IMG/VR virus record: IMGVR_UViG_3300028388_005718
Span: 1 to 26,171 of that record
Source of the DNA: a virus
Direction: 5' to 3' (one strand)
DNA: 26,171 bases
Shown here: positions 1,245-24,300 of the stretch, in pieces
Position numbering within the stretch: the stretch's first letter is position 1
Layout: each line of letters begins with the position of its first letter
Program-made: the position numbers and the translations under genes
The notes under the pieces: generated by a model
Seen by the model: only the letters and a program-made list of their open reading frames with translations
Databases searched by the model: none
Told to the model about the DNA's origin: nothing

Positions 1245-1327
1245 GTACACATCTGAATACATCGTGTGCAAAGAAAAAAAGCGTGTTAAATAGTTTTCAA
1301 TGTGTGAAAGTGTTTTGCTGAATTTGT

Positions 1328-1372
1328 GCAAAAAACTTCGGGAGAATTTTTGAAAAACTTTTTAATATATAG
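1328..1372 (+). promoter_or_regulatory. Repeated promoter-like box upstream of the 1414 gene
   Basis: GCAAAAAAC, TTCGGGAGAA, a T run, GAAAAACTTTTTAA and then TATATAG. The same order of blocks occurs at 2104-2149 before the 2185 gene. The TATATA could be a -10-type element, but there is no TTGACA at the usual distance, so a phage-modified polymerase is likely. The transcript would begin about 35 bp before the gene. Confidence 0.5.
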
Positions 1373-1413: not shown

Positions 1414-2019
1414 ATGAGAAGAAAAGAAACAAACTTATTAGTTGAAAGTTGGAGAAATTTTTTAAAAGAAGAATGTTGGCCTGAAAGGATTGAGATGCCG
1501 ATTGGTAGTCAGGACGACATAAGAAAGAGTTTGGAATATTTTTATCGAATGCATATTCATTATGAGCCTGATTATGAGTATTATAAAAGCATAGGAGAAG
1601 ATATTAGTAGAGTTGATTTTAGTCGATTAGTGAAGAGAAAAAATCCTCCTGCCAGAAAAAAGATTGGTAATATTGGAGGAAATAGTGTAGTTAGGTTTAG
1701 CGGTGGATTCCTAGAAGAAGAAGCATTTATATTTGTTGTAAATAGTGAGGATAATCCTTTGACATACGTAGCATTAGAGCCTTTTAGGGAAGGCTTATGT
1801 GTTGGTAATGTCAGACATTTGAGTGGTAGTGGCTATTATGTAACTGATGTGTATGCGAGTATTGCAAAAGACTGTGGTGTTTTGTATAGTGACGTGAAGC
1901 AGACTGTAGGTGGTGAAGGGATATGGCGGGCTATGATGAAGTTTAGTGATAAGTTGGGATTAGAAGTTTTTGAACCAAGTGAAGAAAATGATTGTCGTTG
2001 GATGTGTCGAGCGAGATAG
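1414..2019 (+). CDS. Putative capsid-packaged protein with possible acetyltransferase-like C-terminus
   Basis: 201 residues; ATG with AGGAAG upstream. Residues 1-19 form an amphipathic peptide (LLVESWRNFLKE) that matches residues 1-19 of the 4320 gene at 12 positions. It ends in L-K-E, the (L/I)-x-E pattern cut by the T4 prohead protease, so this looks like a capsid-targeting peptide. The C-terminal part (about 110-190) alternates strands and helices and has LYSDVKQTVGGEGIWR, reminiscent of the LMSDRGEVSPEAERVW block in the 4320 product and of the end of GNAT-type folds. That fold call is weak. Followed by hairpins at 2007-2054. The coding strand is rich in G and T. Confidence 0.72.
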   Translation: MRRKETNLLVESWRNFLKEECWPERIEMPIGSQDDIRKSLEYFYRMHIHYEPDYEYYKSIGEDISRVDFSRLVKRKNPPARKKIGNIGGNSVVRFSGGFLEEEAFIFVVNSEDNPLTYVALEPFREGLCVGNVRHLSGSGYYVTDVYASIAKDCGVLYSDVKQTVGGEGIWRAMMKFSDKLGLEVFEPSEENDCRWMCRAR

Positions 2020-2054
2020 ATGCTCGAGTTGGGTGTCTCTCGGGCTACAGGCGT
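2007..2054 (+). other. Two 3' stem-loops after the 1414 gene
   Basis: Stem 1 is TCGAGC (2007-2012) with GCTCGA (2022-2027), spanning the stop codon. Stem 2 is GTGTCT (2033-2038) with AGGCGT (2049-2054), a 10-base loop and G-U pairs. Stem 2 matches, in position and loop length, the element after the 2185 gene. There is no T tract, so an ordinary intrinsic terminator is not evident. RNA processing or transcript stability is possible. Confidence 0.45.
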
Positions 2055-2103
2055 AATATAAAAGTTTGAGGCACTTATTTGTAAAAGTAATTTGTGCTTT
2101 TTA

Positions 2104-2149
2104 GCAAAAAATTTTCGGGAGAAATTTTGGAAAACTTTTTAATATATAG
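2104..2149 (+). promoter_or_regulatory. Repeated promoter-like box upstream of the 2185 gene
   Basis: GCAAAAAA, TTTTCGGGAGAA, a T run, GGAAAACTTTTTAA and TATATAG. It is nearly the same as the box at 1328-1372 and lies about the same distance (35-40 bp) from the next start codon. Confidence 0.5.
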
Positions 2150-2184
2150 TTTATTATATAGTTTACATTGACAAGAGTTTAAAC

Positions 2185-3000
2185 ATGATTTTAATAGAAT
2201 ATATAAAGAGTTATTTGAACGAAAGCCTTAAGTCTGCTGATATGTCATATATCGAAGAGTTAGTTTTAAAGTTGAATGAAGCGTGTAAAAAGACTTTTGT
2301 TGAGTTGTCTAATCGAGGTGATGAACATAATTATTACGAATATATATTTGCTTATTTAGACAATGTTATGTATACAAACAAGCCGAGGGTAGAAGAACTA
2401 GAGGAAGGTGTTTACAGAAGGGCGTATGCAATTTCTAGTGAAGACTGGGTTTTGAAGGTATCGATGGATAAAGCGGGCGCAAAAATAAATAAAAAAGAAA
2501 TAGAAATTAGTCAAGGTAAGCACGGTTTAGCTGCTAGAGAAATTTTTTTAAAAGTTTACGATTATGACAAGATTTCTGAGGTGCCTTGTTGGATCATATG
2601 TCAAAAAGTAATACCGATAACTTATATTAATGATTTGAATATTTTAAAGAAAGCATTTCCTACTTTTTGGAATATGATTAAAGAAGGTGATGTGCATAAA
2701 TCGGATGGTATACACTTTACTGCTATGATATGTATGACACTGTCAGCTTTTGGTGAGCGACGTAGTAAAGATAAAAGTCCGAAAAGAGCTTTTTATGACG
2801 CTGCTAGTGCTATTAGTGATTTATATGATTTTGATGATATTACTTTTTATGATGATTTTAATAGAATAAATAAAGCATTTGCGTATATACGTTCTTCTGA
2901 TATGCATGAAGGAAATTTTGGTTTAGTTAGTTTAGAAAACCCGAGTCCTGAGTCTATTGTTATTTTAGACTTTGATGCTGATTTTTATACGGGTAAATAG
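2185..3000 (+). CDS. Kinase-fold protein, putatively capsid-packaged
   Basis: 271 residues. An N-terminal helix (1-15, ending Y-L-N-E) resembles the putative capsid-targeting peptides of neighbouring genes. Residues about 75-95 look like the first strands of a kinase N-lobe, with K91 in WVLKVS as candidate ATP-binding lysine and a glutamate (E105 or E119) as its partner. WIICQKVIPI (136-145) fits the hinge strand. SDMHEGNFG (238-246) fits an H-x-x-x-N-type catalytic loop (D239, H241, N244), and ILDFDAD (260-266) fits the metal-binding DFG-like loop. No glycine-rich loop is obvious, as in aminoglycoside-phosphotransferase or RIO-like kinases. It could phosphorylate a host protein or a small molecule. 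Promoter box upstream, 3' stem-loop downstream. Confidence 0.68.
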   Translation: MILIEYIKSYLNESLKSADMSYIEELVLKLNEACKKTFVELSNRGDEHNYYEYIFAYLDNVMYTNKPRVEELEEGVYRRAYAISSEDWVLKVSMDKAGAKINKKEIEISQGKHGLAAREIFLKVYDYDKISEVPCWIICQKVIPITYINDLNILKKAFPTFWNMIKEGDVHKSDGIHFTAMICMTLSAFGERRSKDKSPKRAFYDAASAISDLYDFDDITFYDDFNRINKAFAYIRSSDMHEGNFGLVSLENPSPESIVILDFDADFYTGK

Positions 3001-3036
3001 AAGTAAATACTCTTAAAAAATATTTTGTCGAGCTGG

Positions 3037-3058
3037 GCGTCTCTTGAGTCACAGACGT
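3037..3058 (+). other. 3' stem-loop after the 2185 gene
   Basis: GCGTCT (3037-3042) pairs with AGACGT (3053-3058) around a 10-base loop. Flanking sequence (TCGAG, CTGGG before; ACAG, AAA after) matches the second stem after the 1414 gene, with paired changes in the stem. GGGGCGTCTCT recurs at 4214-4224 after the 3703 gene without an evident partner arm. Confidence 0.45.
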
Positions 3059-3136
3059 AAAAAATATTTGTGACATGAGTGTATCTTTAGGGTTGAGGCT
3101 GATAGGTAGATTTGTTTTTTATTTGGAGCGAGAAGA

Positions 3137-3373
3137 ATGAATCGATTTGTCTGCTGTGTATTGTTATTTTTGTTGAGTTGTGGTGTTGATTCTGGGTTTG
3201 AGAATCTTGGTGAGAAGAAGGTATGTGATGCGATAAAAGTGCGAGTGCGAGCCTGTACAGGTCGTGGGGTTGAGGAGTGGGGAGGGTGTCATGAAGTTGA
3301 CGAAGATATTGCTTGGGAGAGTGATTGTGGAGAAGTGAAGTGGAAGCTTAACGTGGGAAAGCTGGAGGATTAA
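3137..3373 (+). CDS. Small four-cysteine lipoprotein 1
   Basis: 78 residues. A short signal peptide with hydrophobic core (CCVLLFLLSC) ends in a good lipobox LLS-C15, followed by G. The mature part has four cysteines (about 30, 40, 51, 64), likely two disulfides in the periplasm. The pattern and spacing resemble the lipoprotein at 5278-5529 (K-x-C, about 9 residues, C-x-G). Phage-encoded lipoproteins such as T5 Llp block receptors and cause superinfection exclusion; that role is an inference from type, not from homology. Start ATG follows GGAGCGAGAAG. Confidence 0.7.
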   Translation: MNRFVCCVLLFLLSCGVDSGFENLGEKKVCDAIKVRVRACTGRGVEEWGGCHEVDEDIAWESDCGEVKWKLNVGKLED

Positions 3374-3442
3374 GTGTATGCTGACTTATTTGCTGGCTGG
3401 TGTATATTTATATTTTGTATTAAGAGATTAGCGGAGATTTAA

Positions 3443-3661
3443 ATGAAGTTGTTGGAAAGCTATGTTTTTGAAGTTTTAAAAGAGCAGAATGCGACTGAGT
3501 GTTTGACAAGTGGAGCGTATTTTAATACTGAGATAACGCCTAGGAGAGTGAGTATTTCTGTTGATATGCCTTTTGATTTAGATATTGACGAGAAAGAAGC
3601 TGAGAGGTTGGAGGCTTTATTACATAATGCTGTTGAACTTGTAATGAGCAGGTATTTTTAA
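3443..3661 (+). CDS. Small protein with putative capsid-targeting N-terminus
   Basis: 72 residues. MKLLESYVFEVLKEQ at the start fits the set of N-terminal peptides in this cluster (glutamate at position 5, then hydrophobic face, then L-K-E at 12-14). The rest has a beta-like stretch (RRVSISVDMPFDLDI) and a helix of E, A, L and V to the end. No family recognised. ATG follows GCGGAGATTTAA. Sits between the first lipoprotein and the 3703 gene on the same strand. Confidence 0.65.
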   Translation: MKLLESYVFEVLKEQNATECLTSGAYFNTEITPRRVSISVDMPFDLDIDEKEAERLEALLHNAVELVMSRYF

Positions 3662-3702
3662 CAATAAAGTAATATTTAAGGTATAAAGGAAAAGGTAATT
3701 TC

Positions 3703-4179
3703 ATGAAAACATCTGAGAGACATTTAAGAAGTGTGATAAGAGGCGTAATAAAAGAGTTTGGGATGAGGCAGGTAAAGACCATGCCGAGTGGCGATGATCG
3801 GCGATTTGCTGTGAGTAGTGTAGGAAAAGGTTCTGTTGACGGTGAGATTTCACAAAGTGATGCTGTAAAGTTGATGAGTGCTAGCACTGGTTTTTTTCAA
3901 ACTTTGGTTGATGCAATTAGATTTGGTTTTTTAACACGTGAAGAAGTTAATCGTATTTGTTCTAGTTTGGAGAAGGGCTGTGAAGATAATTTTAAGAGTC
4001 TTGTTGTGTCGCATCCTTGTTTAAAGTGGTGGAAGAACGATGTGTCGAAGATTGCTATGAAGATTGGCGATGAGACGCAGTTTAAGCGTGACTTTTGTGA
4101 GAGTATAAAGAGTAATTGCGAGATGGTAAGAAGCAATTATAATAGGGCATTAGGAAACATTAAGCAAATCCAGATGTGA
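3703..4179 (+). CDS. Unknown protein with putative capsid-targeting N-terminus
   Basis: 158 residues, mostly helical and basic to neutral. Residues 1-18 (SERHLRSVIRGVIKE) carry an L-R-x-x-I-R core like that of the 5560 product and end in I-K-E. The rest contains several cysteines and aromatic pairs (CLKWWKND) but no recognised domain. ATG follows AAAGGAAAAGG. It ends in TGA, showing that TGA is used as a stop here. GGGGCGTCTCT follows about 35 bp downstream. Confidence 0.65.
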   Translation: MKTSERHLRSVIRGVIKEFGMRQVKTMPSGDDRRFAVSSVGKGSVDGEISQSDAVKLMSASTGFFQTLVDAIRFGFLTREEVNRICSSLEKGCEDNFKSLVVSHPCLKWWKNDVSKIAMKIGDETQFKRDFCESIKSNCEMVRSNYNRALGNIKQIQM

Positions 4180-4284
4180 CTTCGTATGTGATATTGTAAT
4201 TTTTTGGTCGGGAGGGGCGTCTCTTTATCTGAAGGATCTTTATTTTTGTATGTTTTGTTTTACTTTCTATTGTGTTTAAACATA

Positions 4285-4290
4285 TATAAT
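4285..4290 (+). promoter_or_regulatory. TATATAAT-type promoter candidate
   Basis: CATATATAATGTG lies about 30 bp before the 4320 start and has no TTGACA-like box at 16-17 bp. The same TATATAAT core occurs before the genes at 6711 and 21381, which suggests a phage late-type promoter of the -10-only kind. Confidence 0.35.
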
Positions 4291-4319
4291 GTGTATAAAG
4301 TAAAAACTGGAGCAAAACT

Positions 4320-5102
4320 GTGAAACGAAAAGAATATAGCTTGTTAGTTGAAGGGTGGAGAGGTTATCTTAACGAGATTGCGTCTGATATAAGTGGTGTG
4401 ACAAAGATTAAATCGCTTGTTGAGAGAATTGTTGCTTTAAGAGAAGAGACAGGAAAAGATGTTAAGATTAGAGCTTATTTTAATGGGACGGTTTTAGAAG
4501 TTGAATTGACAAATTATTCAATTATGAGCATGAATAAAGTGTATTATCAGAAAGCGTGGCTTAATCACTTAGGGAATATAAAAAGAGATGTTAAAGTGGA
4601 GGGTGAAAGAGATCCTTTTGTGATAAAGTATTCTGAAGTGTCTGGTGGGTTTGGTCCTTTGCTTTATGAGATAGGTTTAGAAATAATTAGTTGCATGGAG
4701 AACGGTGCTTTAATGAGTGATCGAGGTGAAGTGTCGCCCGAGGCTGAGAGAGTTTGGAAGAGATATCTCAGGAGATCTAAGTCTGAGTTCAATATTGAAG
4801 CTGTTAAAATGGATTTTTGCGATGAATCTTGGGAAAACGTAATGTATAATGCGCCTTTTGCTGACATGTCTGAGGAAGAGCAGCAGAGGTTTAAGCAAAC
4901 TAAAAAATTGACGCCTGACGATACATCTGATGATATTTATCAATATTCAGCAATTTTAAATGCTGCAGAAAAAGGGAATTTTGCTGATGGTGATTGGGCG
5001 AGCTTTGAAAGCCCGTTAGCTTATGCTTATTATAAGAGAGAGACAGAGATTATTGATTTTATGAAAGATCTTGATGAAAACATAATTGAGTTAGAGCTCT
5101 AG
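4320..5102 (+). CDS. Putative capsid-packaged protein with acetyltransferase-like block
   Basis: 260 residues. GTG start with TGGAG upstream, chosen because it places KRKEYSLLVEGWRGYLNE in line with residues 2-19 of the 1414 product. The peptide ends L-N-E, a T4-type prohead protease site. Residues about 100-155 (GGFGPLLYEIGLEII, then LMSDRGEVSPEAERVW) resemble a GNAT-like layout, a G-x-G loop then helix then C-terminal block, but without a catalytic signature. The acidic C-terminus looks helical. It may be a divergent acetyltransferase or simply a packaged structural protein. Confidence 0.7.
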   Translation: MKRKEYSLLVEGWRGYLNEIASDISGVTKIKSLVERIVALREETGKDVKIRAYFNGTVLEVELTNYSIMSMNKVYYQKAWLNHLGNIKRDVKVEGERDPFVIKYSEVSGGFGPLLYEIGLEIISCMENGALMSDRGEVSPEAERVWKRYLRRSKSEFNIEAVKMDFCDESWENVMYNAPFADMSEEEQQRFKQTKKLTPDDTSDDIYQYSAILNAAEKGNFADGDWASFESPLAYAYYKRETEIIDFMKDLDENIIELEL

Positions 5103-5242
5103 TTTTCAGTTAGAATTTTAACTGTTTTAAAGATTCTTTCTTTTTCTTCTTCAGATAAAAGATCTCTATCTATAACTTCTTGCATTGTTCTTATTAATAT
5201 GTTAATGCAAGTTAATTGTTTTTGATTAATCATGTATCTCAT
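5099..5242 (-). CDS. Small antisense-strand protein filling the gap after the 4320 gene
   Basis: 47 codons from ATG 5242 (or 44 from ATG 5233), ending 4 bp inside the convergent 4320 gene. The product is protein-like, with a leucine/isoleucine helix and then LLSEEEKERIFKTVKIL, so probably two helices. No good Shine-Dalgarno is visible (GAGATAC before the inner ATG). It fills almost the whole gap, and its start lies beside the AT-rich TATAATATAATA region that also precedes the 5278 gene. No family recognised. Confidence 0.42.
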   Translation of the reverse strand: MRYMINQKQLTCINILIRTMQEVIDRDLLSEEEKERIFKTVKILTEN

Positions 5243-5277
5243 AATATTTATAATATAATAAAAATAGAGAGTTTACA

Positions 5278-5529
5278 ATGTATAAAACGATAAAATATAT
5301 TGCAATTGCTTTTACTTTTTTCCTTGCGTCAACTGTATCATGTACAGAAAAGAAAGAAGAAGTAAGAGTAAAGACTGAGTGTGAGCAGATTTTGAATGTA
5401 GTGACTGATTGTATGGGATTACATCGAGGTGCTTTTGATTACATTAATGATTGTGGAAGTGCATCGATAGAAGTGATAAAACAATTAGAGACTTGCGATG
5501 AAATTTTGGATTATATTGAAAACGAATAA
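5278..5529 (+). CDS. Small four-cysteine lipoprotein 2
   Basis: 83 residues. Signal peptide with hydrophobic core (IAIAFTFFLAST) and a slightly unusual lipobox TVS-C22, followed by a charged linker. Four further cysteines (C35, C45, C59, C73) in a helical-looking domain match the number and order in the 3137-3373 product, so the two are probably diverged paralogues. Outer-membrane or periplasmic location is inferred. A receptor-blocking or exclusion role is possible. ATG follows AGAGAG. Confidence 0.68.
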   Translation: MYKTIKYIAIAFTFFLASTVSCTEKKEEVRVKTECEQILNVVTDCMGLHRGAFDYINDCGSASIEVIKQLETCDEILDYIENE

Positions 5530-5559
5530 TATATATTAATATTATAAGTGAGGTAAATT

Positions 5560-6156
5560 ATGTTAATAAAAGAAAGCCAATTAAGAGCAATCATAAGAGA
5601 AGAATTAATATTTGAAAATATTGATATATTGTATGAAGCAGGTTTTATGTCTAAGATTGCAAAGCATGGAAAATCATTTGGTTTGAGCATGCTTTTAGTT
5701 CTTATAGCAGGTGGTTATCTTAATCCATCAAAAGCTTTTGGTAAAAAGTTTCATGATCTTTATGTAAAAGATGCAGCAAAAAGTGCAGCAGCTAAGCTAG
5801 TAAATGTTAAAAAACGAGTTGGCCCCAAAGGTCTAAAAAAACTAAAAGACAATATAGAATATAAAAAATTAAGTGAAAAGCTAGACAAAGCATTAAAAAA
5901 ACTAGATGATGCTTTTAAGAAAAGAGATGATCTAGAAAAAGTAATAGATAAAAATTTTGCAAAATCAAACGATAAACAACGCAAAAAATTCAAAGAACTT
6001 GAAGAAAAAGTCCAAGACAACATTAATAAAGCAAACGAAGAAATGCAAAAAGTTAAAAAAGAATACGATGATTTTTGTCAAAAAATAATTGATGATGCAG
6101 ATTTTGATATTGCTAAATCGCATGAAGATGAATTGGATTACTTAGAAGGTAATTAA
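5560..6156 (+). CDS. Lysine-rich coiled-coil protein with capsid-targeting-like N-terminus
   Basis: 198 residues. ESQLRAIIREE (5-15) is a form of the L-R-x-I-I-R-E-E peptide that I recall at the start of many proteins of marine phages. Cleavage after I-R-E or a following I-F-E would fit a T4-type protease. A hydrophobic stretch (about 40-54) follows, then a long K/D/E-rich region (about 70-190) with heptad character, suggesting a coiled coil. Abundant lysine would suit an internal protein in contact with packaged DNA. ATG follows GTGAGG. The coding strand is A-rich, unlike the G/T-rich genes at 1414-4320. Confidence 0.68.
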   Translation: MLIKESQLRAIIREELIFENIDILYEAGFMSKIAKHGKSFGLSMLLVLIAGGYLNPSKAFGKKFHDLYVKDAAKSAAAKLVNVKKRVGPKGLKKLKDNIEYKKLSEKLDKALKKLDDAFKKRDDLEKVIDKNFAKSNDKQRKKFKELEEKVQDNINKANEEMQKVKKEYDDFCQKIIDDADFDIAKSHEDELDYLEGN

Positions 6157-6364: not shown

Positions 6365-6658
6365 ATGAAAAGCGATGATTTATACATAATTCAGTCAGAT
6401 GTAACTGGAATGGTAAAAATAGGTAGATCTAAAAATCCTGCAAAAAGGCTAAAACAGCTTCAAACTGGTAATCCAAATAAGTTAAAATTGATAGCTTGTT
6501 TCCAAGGAGAAGGTTGGAAAGAAAAAATACTCCACGAAAAACTAAATAGATATAGGCTTAAAGGTGAGTGGTTTAGTTACGATTGCGTTGGTAGTATTCC
6601 TGACGGTTTGTATGAGCAAATAAAGTTTGGTTCTTTCGATGATTGGTGGAGCAAATAA
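6365..6658 (+). CDS. GIY-YIG-like protein of the T5orf172/MUG113 type
   Basis: 97 residues. LYIIQ (6-10) and VKIGRS (17-22) are the GIY and YIG strands; R28 in AKRLKQLQTGNP and a glutamate in EKILHEKL fit the catalytic or structural positions of the family; GEWF closes the domain. The length equals a bare domain with no added DNA-binding region. Such proteins in large phages are small DNA-binding or nicking proteins of unclear role, sometimes homing-related. ATG follows TAAGGAA. Preceded by a 200-bp stretch with the broken minus-strand ORF. Confidence 0.8.
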   Translation: MKSDDLYIIQSDVTGMVKIGRSKNPAKRLKQLQTGNPNKLKLIACFQGEGWKEKILHEKLNRYRLKGEWFSYDCVGSIPDGLYEQIKFGSFDDWWSK

Positions 6659-9812: not shown

Positions 9813-10661
9813 CTAAAAAGCTTTAAAAATAAAAGGAATTATCCATCCAATATAATAATTTAAATCGATACCAGTTAAAGTGTAGAACATACTGTTAGTA
9901 TGGAAGTTATTTGCAGTTTTTATTAAAAAAAATAAAATAAAAACTAAAGAAATCCAAAAAAGTTTTAATGTTATCCACCATAATAGCTCTTTTAAGCTTT
10001 TGTTTCTTAATCTCGTTCTTATTTTTCTAGCTCCACCAATTCTTTTTGCTTTTTCTCCATCTGGAGGTGGTTGCAACTGTGCTTCAATCAGTCCAATTGC
10101 ATAAATTGCTTCAGGCTCTGCAACGCCTTTAAAAGAGTAAAGGCCTACTAATGCTGATAGTGCTTTTTGAGGAATGTAGCTGCTTCTGTGACCAAATTTT
10201 TTATACTGCATATATGCTTGACTAGACATAAGAATTTGTTCTTCACCACATATCGACATAGTTCTAGCTGCAATGTTTTTTCCGATACCTTCTAAATTTA
10301 TTCTTTTACCACCTGCTCTTACAATATGAGCTTCAGACTTTACAATCAGCATCTTGTCCCAGTGTATACCTACACGACTTCGAAAAGGAAACTTCTTTTT
10401 TCTTAAAAATTTTTTGTACTCAAAAGCAAACGAAATTGCATCTGAGACTGTTGCAAACATCATTAAGTGACCGTCAGATGCATCTATAAGCTGGCCGTTA
10501 TGTCTTGCAATAAAATTCATAACAGCTTTGTCGTGAATACCAAACCACTTTGCAGCAATTCTAGCACCATTTTTTTGAACAAATTTTGTCGAGCCAATAA
10601 TGTCAGTTAAAACTATGGCGATATTTGCTTCAATTGTATTTTCATCTATACTTTTGCTCAT
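9813..10661 (-). CDS. Class III nucleotide cyclase with C-terminal membrane segments
   Basis: 282 residues. A class III cyclase homology domain fills about 10-200: LTDIIGST (D20, first metal), ASDGHLMMF (D63, second metal), RVGIH (96-100), and GIGKNIAAR with N129 and R133 as the transition-state pair, ending with FKGVAEPEAIYAIG. The active-site residues therefore look intact. The two residues that usually select adenine (a lysine before the GDG-like loop, an aspartate before the N-x3-R) align with I59 and I126, so the base used is open. A basic linker (205-220) leads to two membrane helices (about 220-246 and 264-280). Minus strand with AGGA upstream. A phage copy is unusual; it may alter host cyclic-nucleotide signalling or interfere with cyclic-nucleotide-based defence. 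Confidence 0.78.
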   Translation of the reverse strand: MSKSIDENTIEANIAIVLTDIIGSTKFVQKNGARIAAKWFGIHDKAVMNFIARHNGQLIDASDGHLMMFATVSDAISFAFEYKKFLRKKKFPFRSRVGIHWDKMLIVKSEAHIVRAGGKRINLEGIGKNIAARTMSICGEEQILMSSQAYMQYKKFGHRSSYIPQKALSALVGLYSFKGVAEPEAIYAIGLIEAQLQPPPDGEKAKRIGGARKIRTRLRNKSLKELLWWITLKLFWISLVFILFFLIKTANNFHTNSMFYTLTGIDLNYYIGWIIPFIFKAF

Positions 10662-15607: not shown

Positions 15608-15820
15608 ATGTCAGAGCTAGAAACACAAGAACAAGAATTTACACTTGAGTCAATTGATGATCACTTTAGTCACTTAAAACTTTTAGTTGAAAGTATGGAA
15701 ACAGATGCAATTAAAGCTAACAAGGGAAATAAAGCTGCAGGTGTTAGACTAAGAAAAAGCTTACGTTACGTTAAAGGATTTACAGGTGAGTTTGTAAAGT
15801 TTACGCTAAACAAGGATTAA
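15608..15820 (+). CDS. Histone H1-like protein of the Hc1 type
   Basis: 70 residues. ANKGNKAAGVRLRKSLRYVK (about 37-56) fits the GNKAAG-x-R-x-R-K signature of bacterial Hc1-like histone proteins, here after an acidic N-terminus of 20 residues. Such proteins bind and bend or compact DNA. Inferred to act on phage or host DNA. Strong ribosome site AAAGGAG, 6-7 bases from ATG. Its 3' end overlaps the convergent 15806-16048 gene by 15 bp. Confidence 0.72.
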   Translation: MSELETQEQEFTLESIDDHFSHLKLLVESMETDAIKANKGNKAAGVRLRKSLRYVKGFTGEFVKFTLNKD

Positions 15821-16048
15821 GCTTTTTCTTATTTTTTCAAGAACACTTTTTTCTATTTGACAAACTCTCATCCTAGTAATGCCAAACAAGTCTCCTACTT
15901 CTTGTAGTGTAAAGTCTTCTTTGGCATTTACTTTATTTAAGATACAATTGTTATCTCTATTATCTAAATCGTGCCAGTATCTACATTCAGTATTTTTACA
16001 TGATTTGTTGTTTTTTTTGTGTGCATTAAAGCAAGTAATGTTTTTCAT
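15806..16048 (-). CDS. Zinc-finger plus sigma region 4 regulator
   Basis: 80 residues. N-terminal cysteines and histidines (CFNAHKKNNKSC, NTECRYWH, NNC) probably bind zinc. The C-terminal half FTLQEVGDLFGITRMRVCQIEKSVLEKIRK is, in order, the helix-turn-helix of sigma-70 region 4 (LQEIG..L.VTR.RV.QIE). It lacks regions 2 and 3, so it cannot be a full sigma factor; a promoter-recognition or co-activator role like T4 gp33 is possible. Minus strand, divergent from PhoH; ribosome site AAAGG, rather far (about 11 bases) from the ATG. Confidence 0.75.
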   Translation of the reverse strand: MKNITCFNAHKKNNKSCKNTECRYWHDLDNRDNNCILNKVNAKEDFTLQEVGDLFGITRMRVCQIEKSVLEKIRKSLILV

Positions 16049-21380: not shown

Positions 21381-24300
21381 ATGGCAACAAAGAATTTAGT
21401 TCCTAGAGAAGATCTAGAAGGAAAACTAGGTTTAGAAAATAGGCGTTGGTTAGGTGTTAATGCTTCAAACGGTTCTTTTAACGAATTAAAAACTGATTCT
21501 CTTTTAAATAAGGCAGGAAACCCTTTAATAGTATCAGGTGACAATAGCATTGTAATAACTGGCCCGAGTGATCCTGCTGATGGAAATGGCGCTCAATATA
21601 CAATAACCACCTCAGATAGTGGTAGCTCTAATGCTGAAGTTGATAGAATATTTGCTGGGAGCGAAACTGTTCCACAAAGTCAAGCAGTTATTTCTATACA
21701 CGACGTTAATGATCAAAATAATAATAAAATAGTTTTTAAAACTTTAGATACTACTCGATGGTTTATTGACAGTTCAGGTCATTATTTACCTAATACACCC
21801 AATGCCTATAACATTGGCAACGATACTAAACCTGTCAATAAGCTTTACCTGTCAGGAAACGAATCACAAAAAAAAGGTATTAGATTTGTCGATTCTTCAA
21901 ATTATCAAGTTTCCTTAAACACAACTAATGACACACGTCGTCTAATTGTTTCGTCTAATTTTGATTCTAATAATGATAGCTTTGTTTACGACAATCTAGT
22001 TGTTAGAAAATCTCCTGTTAAAGTTTCTACTACAGAAGAACTTTCAGCAACTTACGATAGCGAAGCTGGAACTCTAACAGCTAACAACAATGGCACACTA
22101 ACAATAGATGGCGTAGATATTTTAGCTAACGACAGAGTACTCGTAAATCATCAAACGAATAAGATTCAAAATGGTATTTATAAGTGTACATCTGTAGGAG
22201 ACGTAGAGAACAGTTTTGTTCTAACAAGATCAAACGATCTTAGCATCGGCGACGACTTCAGCAGTGTTTTTGTTGAAGTGTTAGAAGGTCAAAGTAACTC
22301 TGGAAATATTTTTTATGCATCGTCTGATCTAGAAAGCTCACTAGTTGGAACTAATAATATTACTTGGAGTTCTTTCAAGTCATCAGGTCTAGAAAAAGTA
22401 GAAGATGATTCAAGTCCAAGATTAAGTAACAATTTAGATCTTAATGCACACAATTTGGCTTCTTCAAGCACTGTAGAAATACTACCTGATGGCACATCAG
22501 TTGGCGAAGGTTTATCTCTGAATAAAAACCTATTAAAAATAAACTTTGTTAGTGCTAGTCAACCAGACTCTGTAATTCCAGAGTTAGTTTTTGGTGCTTC
22601 TAGCGACAAAGAAATTAAAATAAAATCACCAACAGCATCTGAATTTTTTACTGGCGGGAGTATTGCTAGCAATCAATTTACATTTACTTTTCGGCATGTC
22701 AATCTTACGCAAGCCGAAAAAGATAATTCGTTAGCTTATCTTGCGTCAGAAGGATTTGTCAATTCTGAAATAAACAGTCAAGGTTTTATAACATCAGCTG
22801 ATTTGCCAGATGTCAGTAATTTTATATCAACAGCTGACGATGCAAATTTAAGTACATTAACACTTTCTACATCAGGTAGCGGGTTTTCTTTAACAGCTGG
22901 CAATAAAAGAATCGGTCTTGTTGCAACACCTAGTAATGGAACAGATGCAGCAAACAAAGACTACGTTGACGCTTTAGTTCAGGGTATTAACTCTATACTC
23001 GATACATGCTTAGTTGCAACTGTTTCAAATCTAAATTCAATTTATGCAAATCAACAATTAACATCTCAAGCTAACGGAGCTTTATCTAGCAATATACTTG
23101 ACAATGTTGATATTAATTTAATTGTTGAAAGAGATGAAACAGACCCGCAAAATATTATTACTGGATCAAGAATTTTAGTTTCTAGCCAAGATAATGAAAG
23201 TCAAAACGGTATATATGAAGTAATAGACAAAGGAAACGCGTCCAGTCCTTGGATTTTAGAAAGAGCTGAAGATTTTAGAGAAAATTTCGAAGCAAGTGGT
23301 AGTTTTATTTACGTTGAAAAAGGTGACGTAAATAGCGGTAAAGGATTAGTTTGTACTTCTCCGTCAAATAACGATACAGTTGGCACTGATGATATTAAAT
23401 TTACAATATTTTCAGGTGCAGGAGAAATTCAAGCTGGAAGTGGTCTTACTTTAAGCGGGAATACATTAAACGCAAACATAAAAGACGCTGGCGATGATCA
23501 GATTATTTTTATTGATAACGACAATAAATTTGATGCAAATATTACAAATATTATAACTAAGATTAATACAGCTGGTGGTGTTGAAGCTTCAAATGCAGCA
23601 AGTTTTACTTGGCCTAGTACTTCACTATCACCAATCGCTGCAGATGATCAAATAGTTATCAAAGATTTGTCTTCACAAAATGGTGATGTAAAGAATGCGT
23701 CTGTAAATAACTTAAAACAAACAATGCTCGCTTTTGATACATCAGATATTGACTTTACATATACAGCAAGCCCAGAAAACTGGACTGCGTCAATAGGAGA
23801 TGAGAAAGTAACTAATGTTCACTTGAACCAGTCTGTTGTAACAGGATTGACTGAAGTTGATGAAACTCCTGGAGACAATGATTACTTTATGATCAAAAGT
23901 GACTCTCAGAATGGTTTGAGAAAAGTTTCTTACGAAAATTTAAAAAGTGGCATTTCAGCTACACCAGACTTTTCAAACTTGAGCCAAATCCCAGATGATG
24001 ACATATCTGGCGACGATACTTTAATTATAAATAATTCCACAGATAACACAAGCTACAGTATTGAACTCAATAAAATAACACTTAATACAGTTGTATTGCC
24101 TCCAGAAATATCTGGAAATACTATTGAACTTTATTCTGGAAATAGATACGTTTACGTTGTGCCTCGCTTAGGTAATGATGTTTCTCAAGTAGTTAATTTT
24201 AACTTAAATGACACAGTTGAAGGAACTTCAGACATTGTACCAGAAGGAAGTTCAATTGAATTAGAAATATACCAAGGCAGATTTGACCAAGACAGTTACA

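Follow-up and report, generated by a model that had tools for sequence, protein, structure and literature searches.

Putative head-targeting leaders on six neighbouring proteins of a T4-superfamily phage fragment

Introduction

In bacteriophage T4, cargo is directed to the core by a capsid-targeting sequence (CTS) of 10–19 residues, which the gp21 protease cuts off (PMC3012670, PMC9026906, PMC5694885). The T4 internal proteins (IPs) are diverse and have the CTS alone in common, and when the CTS is fused to other proteins, these are packaged and delivered into cells (PMC3012670, PMC9026906). Here we describe six neighbouring genes on a virus fragment of 26,171 nt (IMGVR_UViG_3300028388_005718, positions 1–26,171; hereafter the window, in which 33 genes were scored) whose products begin with short leaders of a common pattern. 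From their sequences, and by analogy with T4, these six N-termini are probably capsid-targeting propeptides that load diverse cargo into a T4-type head for injection.

The likeness to the CTS of T4 IPI, IPII, IPIII and Alt lies in length (13–19 residues for the six leaders, 10–19 for the CTS), in a leader end at a gp21-type [LI]-x-E, in a common leader on unlike bodies, in fast-changing cargo and in the presence of gp21 and gp23 homologues, here in relatives of the window. What is new compared with T4 is that there are three interchangeable leader classes, ~10 or more leader genes per genome and acidic, enzyme-like cargo, whereas the mode of operation would be the one already known for the T4 CTS.

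Heads of the SPN3US/phiKZ type offer a second comparison, as their protease strips N-terminal propeptides from several head proteins (PMC10052503, PMC5694885). The sites agree with those described here in having E at P1 and favouring S at P1′ (PMC10052503, PMC5694885), but the consensus is A-x-E, the propeptides mostly exceed 100 residues and the head is not of the gp21/gp23 type. In the Agrobacterium jumbo phage Atu_ph07, the block of coding sequences (CDS) 31–76 accounts for 29 virion proteins identified by mass spectrometry, a count for the whole block, and two of these had been predicted beforehand (PMC6102473). We find that CDS 53–62 of this phage (locus L422, NC_042013.1, 19485–29508) are ten consecutive genes starting M-[RK]-W-x-[QD]-L-x-E on different bodies, one of them a zeta-toxin/AAA_33 kinase, with YRG[MI] in the bodies, and that Atu_ph07 encodes an S77 (gp21-type) prohead protease. 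Tandem genes, a shared N-terminus, varied bodies and an S77 protease (here in relatives of the window) are features of both systems, although the Atu_ph07 leader is only 8 aa long. The cultivated Flavobacterium phage immuto (L174–L181), which also encodes S77, has shared N-termini of its own, MENFDLKKFLVENKLT in four proteins and MKKQILSEQF..MQ.LAGIITES in two; no virion proteomics for immuto was found in the literature.

Results

A common leader on six neighbouring proteins

The original prediction held that six open reading frames of the window, starting at 1414, 2185, 3443, 3703, 4320 and 5560 (positions by which the genes are named here), encode proteins with E at residue 5 and an [LI]-x-E ending by residue 13–19, and that the leaders of 1414 and 4320 match at 12 of 19 positions. 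Both statements were borne out. The endings are LKE at residue 19 (1414), LNE at 13 (2185), LKE at 14 (3443), IKE at 18 (3703), LNE at 19 (4320) and either IRE at 14 or IFE at 19 (5560), and at the DNA level the 1414 and 4320 leader regions are 71% identical over 62 nt. Gene starts here and in the comparisons below come from a simple caller, except for Atu_ph07 and named T4 head genes.

A simple motif ([LIVT]x[ED], 5–12 residues and [LIV]xE within the first ~24 aa), composed after the six genes had been seen, is present in 6/8 cluster genes and in 1/25 other genes of the window (Fisher p=1.7e-4). When five related contigs were pooled, the corresponding figures were 27/49 and 68/672 (p=2.5e-13), and shuffled N-termini of the window gave the motif in a mean of 0.8 of the eight cluster genes, with a maximum of four. 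Since this motif was post hoc, position-specific scoring matrices (PSSMs) built solely from the leaders of other phages (67 class A and 72 class B/C), with the window left out, were applied as a stricter test. The six genes were the top six of the 33 scored, at 33.8, 29.2, 25.3, 18.9, 8.3 and 7.0 bits, and the best other gene reached 1.4 bits; the weakest two of the six were 2185 and 3443. The shared leader on six neighbouring proteins is confirmed.

The leaders fall into three classes: class A (M-x-I-T-E-x-x-L-R-x-I-I-R-x-x-I-x-E), class B (R-K-E-x-x-L-L-V-E-x-W-R-x-x-L-x-E) and class C (I-L-E-x-Y-I-K-x-x-L-x-E). The matching cluster in syntenic relatives is rich in leader proteins, with several MRITE..LR leaders in succession in L211 and at least five M-K-L-I-[MI]-E-x-W leaders in L225/L228. 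One leader can head different bodies, as in G003_005 and G003_006 (both MKITENDLRILIREVL) or G004_218 and G004_219 (both MILENYIKEVLLFE); 1414 has the leader alone in common with the cluster members L211_2 and L216_4, and the leader of 5560 recurs in L208_12/L220_9. Classes are also swapped on orthologous bodies. The kinase-like body of 2185 has a class C leader in the window and class B in contigs G002 and G004; the body of 3443 has class C in the window and class A in its orthologues G005_025 and L219_11, the junction E|QN being kept in G005_025 although the leader class differs; and the body of 4320 has class B in the window and class C in its orthologue G004_219, while its orthologues in L216–L219, at 72–77% identity, retain the leader. 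The cluster is not the sole place of such genes, as G002 and G004 carry others at different sites, among them a class B leader gene beside the G004 capsid gene. When the genome being scored was excluded from training, 12 genes of G002 and 13 of G004 exceeded 10 bits. In a homologue of 2185, G004_034 (L214 344–1126; G004 21702–22976), an N-terminal domain, MPYSIKKKNCKDSSGNKG...CHTSKEKAKSAVRARYANE, replaces the leader and is perhaps another head-targeting module.

The predicted cut site and the capsid propeptide

Site statistics were drawn from 69 class A and 75 class B/C distinct leaders, picked by regular expression on their first residues among 3035 distinct proteins from all loci. [LIVF]-x-E stood at offset 11 from the anchor in 32/69 class A leaders (2.7 expected) and in 28/75 class B/C leaders (2.0 expected), so that 60 of the 144 have it at fixed spacing against ~5 expected. 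P3 of the predicted site is I or L, and P1′ is often S, with N, A or G as well in class A. For T4 IPIII, exchange of the P1 E for D is reported to block cleavage.

It had been proposed that the prohead protease be sought and its site in the capsid protein compared with the leaders, and this comparison came out in favour of the prediction. An S77 protease was found in relatives of the window, and the capsid protein of G002 and G004 contains AAQVLRE|SSTMNAGDVGG, aligned adjacent to the T4 gp23 site FGSFLTE|AEIGG. The [LI]xE of the leaders thus resembles the lineage's own putative capsid-protein site, VLRE|S.

The class B leader is also like the start of gp23-type propeptides (RM378, MSQPKINEQLIEKWQPLLEG; T4, KAELLNKWKPLLEGE), and the capsid site likewise ends LxE. 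The propeptide differs in being ~60 aa long and in having its site at the end rather than directly after the W-x-x-L helix. A class B-like segment of the G002/G004 capsid protein, NKRLVEKWS, scored above shuffled sequences (p=0.002–0.0035). In RM378 the capsid protein is the best match to the leader profile in the whole genome (shuffle p=0.0004), and the start of the T4 gp23 propeptide gave p=0.013 against shuffles with the class B profile. The class B-like segments in the G002/G004 and RM378 capsid proteins point to a common way of binding, and leader and propeptide may share a binding mode in the prohead core.

Predicted structures and candidate cargo bodies

AlphaFold2 models were obtained for two of the six. 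That of 4320 (predicted local distance difference test (pLDDT) 87.5) has a lone N-terminal helix (residues 3–18), a linker with pLDDT <50 (18–23) and a confident fold; that of 2185 (pLDDT 81) has a lone N-terminal helix (2–15), residues 11–17 with pLDDT <50 and again a confident fold. In both models the predicted cut would lie in a low-confidence linker between helix and folded domain.

Foldseek searches of the PDB with the 2185 body returned kinases alone, namely APH(2'')-IVa, IDH kinase/phosphatase and protein kinases (E 3e-4, probability 1.00, template modelling (TM) score ~0.3), and K91, E105, D239 and D262 are invariant in its alignments. For the 4320 model there was no match in the PDB at E<=0.001; one match in BFVD, at E 3.9e-6, is unnamed, a few others are weakly GNAT-like, and identification as an acetyltransferase was rejected because the resemblance is too weak. 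The six bodies had no usable match in Pfam, PHROGs, NCBIfam or PADLOC, with none at all for 1414 in these collections, and a homologue search with the 5560 protein gave no match. Coiled-coil library matches of 5560, whose body is basic (pI 9.2), Lys-rich and coiled with a hydrophobic stretch near residues 40–53, were dismissed as non-specific, and the match of 2185 to phrog_4301, a family without known function, was unusable. Leader-bearing candidate cargo in relatives includes a NUDIX protein (E 3.6e-9) and an AAA_33 P-loop kinase (E 2.7e-9).

Lineage of the window and breadth of the leader

The PhoH-like ATPase of the window is 93% identical to those of contigs G001 (34.5 kb) and G002 (211 kb) and 77% identical to that of G004 (239.5 kb), and the gene order of the window is kept over most of its length in all three. 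Both G002 and G004 encode an S77 protease (E ~1e-29) and a gp23-type capsid protein (E ~1e-66), and the head block of G002 brings together gp23-type capsid, gp20-type portal, gp17-type terminase and gp21-type protease. In the phage collection, the capsid proteins have their closest relatives in LR756508 (uncultured, 484 kb), RM378 (Rhodothermus), Mel-JY01 (Microcystis) and immuto (Flavobacterium), and S77 was present in 4/4 records checked among these nearest relatives, one record per lineage. On these sequence comparisons the window comes from the genome of a T4-superfamily jumbo phage of 210–240 kb, and it is very likely that a gp21-type protease matures the head of this phage.

The original prediction described starts of the form LRxIIREE as common in marine phages. 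As a DNA pattern, LRxIIREE occurs in at least 119 viral stretches, at no fewer than 122 sites, and among the non-terminase matches listed 82/99 are no more than 12 codons away from a called gene start (5.8% expected); such starts are real. They are not specific to cargo: 23/122 of the listed matches are terminase N-termini, so the octamer alone was rejected as a cargo mark. Many terminase large subunits of viral contigs (L004–L122) begin MSQ..DLRQIIREEYLKCA, that is, with the class A octamer and no subsequent [LI]xE. A strict class B DNA pattern had no match in viral contigs, tblastn with the short leaders found essentially no isolated phage, the one exception being an uncultured 484 kb phage, and the literature on 'IIREE' yielded unrelated text only.

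S77 was present in 12/16 contigs with leaders or LRxIIREE; above 60 kb the count was 11/11, against 3/10 in a small set of arbitrary control contigs of that size. Among the 943 genes of four S77-negative contigs none reached 10 bits, and T4 has one such gene. On sequence evidence S77 goes with the leaders and the leader pattern holds across many related marine phages, while these particular classes appear to be lineage-specific, since two S77-positive control contigs, as well as RM378 (its capsid protein aside) and Mel-JY01, have few or none.

The cluster interval and other features of the window

Coordinates are collected in Table 1. A 28-nt repeat (consensus near GTCGAG.TGGGCGTCTCTT) is found at 2014–2041, 3018–3045 and 4198–4225, at or shortly 3′ of the stop codons of 1414, 2185 and 3703. 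The cluster has a very strong G>C strand bias from 1500 to 5000 (GC skew +0.3 to +0.58), which falls after 5000. Positions 1–1260, between a minus-strand gene at 1–162 and the leader cluster, form a long stretch without convincing genes, with a GC content of ~0.41 against ~0.27–0.39 downstream, diverged repeats (families D1, D10, D13 and D14) and a GC-rich gggccctaaaagggccc palindrome; it is a possible regulatory or origin region.

Table 1. Features of the leader cluster and its flank
Feature	Coordinates	Strand	Remarks
Intergenic repeat, copy 1	1300..1372	+	Upstream of 1414
Leader protein 1, 201 aa	1414..2019	+	Class B leader MRRKETNLLVESWRNFLKE|E; PSSM 29.2 bits
Predicted capsid-targeting leader of 1414, residues 1–19	1414..1470	+	
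Intergenic repeat, copy 2	2077..2149	+	Upstream of 2185
Leader protein 2, 271 aa	2185..3000	+	Class C leader MILIEYIKSYLNE|S; predicted kinase-fold body
Predicted leader of 2185, residues 1–13	2185..2223	+	PSSM; AlphaFold2
Lipoprotein-like gene inside cluster	3137..3373	+	No leader, negative leader score; orthologues in L208, L218 and L219
Leader protein 3, 72 aa	3443..3661	+	Class C-like leader MKLLESYVFEVLKE|Q
Predicted leader of 3443, residues 1–14	3443..3484	+	
Leader protein 4, 158 aa	3703..4179	+	Class A leader MKTSERHLRSVIRGVIKE|F; PSSM 18.9 bits; basic body, pI 8.9
Predicted leader of 3703, residues 1–18	3703..3756	+	
Leader protein 5, 260 aa	4320..5102	+	GTG start; class B leader MKRKEYSLLVEGWRGYLNE|I
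Predicted leader of 4320, residues 1–19	4320..4376	+	AlphaFold2
Lipoprotein-like gene inside cluster	5278..5529	+	No leader, negative leader score; orthologues in relatives
Leader protein 6, 198 aa	5560..6156	+	Class A leader MLIKESQLRAIIREELIFE|N; PSSM 33.8 bits
Predicted leader of 5560, residues 1–19	5560..5616	+	
MUG113/T5orf172 (GIY-YIG-like) gene	6365..6658	+	Flanks the syntenic cluster in most relatives; 71–85% identity there

Two genes elsewhere in the window deserve mention. An 80-aa protein (15806–16048, minus strand) consisting of Sigma70 region 4 alone (E 2e-10) is kept in relatives and may be a phage transcription factor. The product of 9813–10661 (minus strand) resembles class III nucleotidyl cyclases, carries a C-terminal hydrophobic segment and matches the cyclase Ma1120 (E 5e-7) and the mycobacterial LipJ cyclase (E 9e-5) in the PDB and mod_pep_cyc in NCBIfam (E 3e-32, under that model's cut-off). 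Its identity is 77–92% in the closest relatives and 43–64% in others, and a cyclase conserved on a phage would be unusual.

Discussion

We propose the following model for the six proteins. Through its leader helix each protein would attach to the core of the prohead, as the capsid protein may also do through the start of its propeptide, and folded cargo would thereby enter the prohead. There the cargo would be separated from its leader by a gp21-type S77 protease acting after [LI]-x-E in the flexible linker, and in mature form it would stay in the head until it is delivered together with the DNA. The cargo would consist of fast-changing, unrelated proteins, such as the putative kinase-fold protein 2185 and, in relatives, the NUDIX protein and P-loop kinase, which are most plausibly early host-takeover or counter-defence effectors. 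Virion presence, core binding, cleavage, packaging, injection and an effector role are all steps that we infer; injection and effector function in particular would follow from the analogy with T4 and from the cargo folds. The T4-like capsid-targeting reading of the original prediction stands in so far as the leaders are modular, have [LI]xE at a fixed spacing, end at a capsid-like site and belong to a lineage whose relatives encode S77 and gp23-type capsid proteins; it does not extend to the sequence of the leaders, which is not that of the T4 CTS and resembles the capsid propeptide.

Several observations weigh against capsid targeting. The T4 sequence MKTYQEFIAE was not matched, and the leader profile gives T4 IPI–III −11 to −12 bits. 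Head genes, including the S77 protease, are absent from the 26-kb window, so protease and capsid type had to be taken from relatives. The leaders behind the site statistics were selected by pattern, and two of class A and three of class B/C come from the window, where P1′ (E, S, Q, F, I and N) is less uniform than in relatives. Mature bodies are acidic in four of the six proteins, in contrast to the basic T4 IPs, and the TM scores of the kinase-fold match are low. With regard to the association with S77, two of the eleven positive contigs were found through a terminase N-terminus, two unrelated S77-positive contigs (460 genes) had no gene at or above 10 bits, and leaders of this kind are few or absent in the S77-positive phages RM378, its capsid protein aside, and Mel-JY01. 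Lastly, no late promoter shared by leader and head genes could be distinguished from the AT-rich background.

The alternative that survives best accepts a cleaved head-targeting leader and differs over the proteins that carry it, which would be internal structural, core or DNA-condensing proteins rather than injected effectors. The T4 core proteins gp22, gp67 and gp68 are likewise cut by gp21 (PMC5694885), a leader-like start is found on a small protein of the head operon (G002_011/G004_146), class B leaders occur beside the capsid gene in G004, and the bodies of 3703 and 5560 are basic. However, the bodies differ strongly even among close relatives and include enzyme folds (a putative kinase fold, NUDIX and AAA_33). 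Because of this variability and these folds, delivered cargo fits better than a structural core, and we consider the structural explanation unlikely.

Less likely still is that the leader serves as an address for a membrane, a phage-induced compartment or a host degradation or chaperone system, with [LI]xE incidental to an E-rich amphipathic helix. The leaders are indeed predicted helices of mixed charge, and LRQIIREE stands on terminases elsewhere without their being cargo. Against this, the site occurs at one fixed offset, far over shuffled expectation, in two unrelated leader classes, it matches the capsid cleavage consensus, and the leaders are strongly associated with S77-encoding phages. 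That the shared N-termini are functionless relics of 5′-end duplication or recombination, on paralogues with diverged bodies, is very improbable: the similarity of the 1414 and 4320 leader DNA and the repeated intergenic elements would agree with it, but the leader is kept on unrelated bodies, its classes are swapped on orthologous ones, and orthologues at 72–77% identity retain a leader that drift would erase.

The leaders provide a sequence rule by which phage genes that could not be annotated become predicted head cargo, each with a stated cut site that can be checked by mass spectrometry. Whether a large share of the T4-superfamily phages of water and sediment use a few interchangeable leader cassettes, one class of them akin to the beginning of the capsid propeptide, as a general head-loading address seems to us evenly balanced. 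Each phage would then carry in its head a changing set of ~10 or more enzymes (kinase-fold, P-loop kinase, NUDIX and others) that act within the first minutes of infection, and the many hypothetical proteins that start MxITExxLRxIIR or LLVExWRxxL would be head cargo. If the capsid-targeting reading of the leaders is right, their profile picks out injected effectors in T4-superfamily phages that have not been cultivated, and host-takeover and counter-defence enzymes are likely to be frequent among these. Furthermore, the cargo address would be linked to the capsid protein's own propeptide, and the leaders would serve as natural tags that can be swapped when proteins are to be loaded into phage heads.

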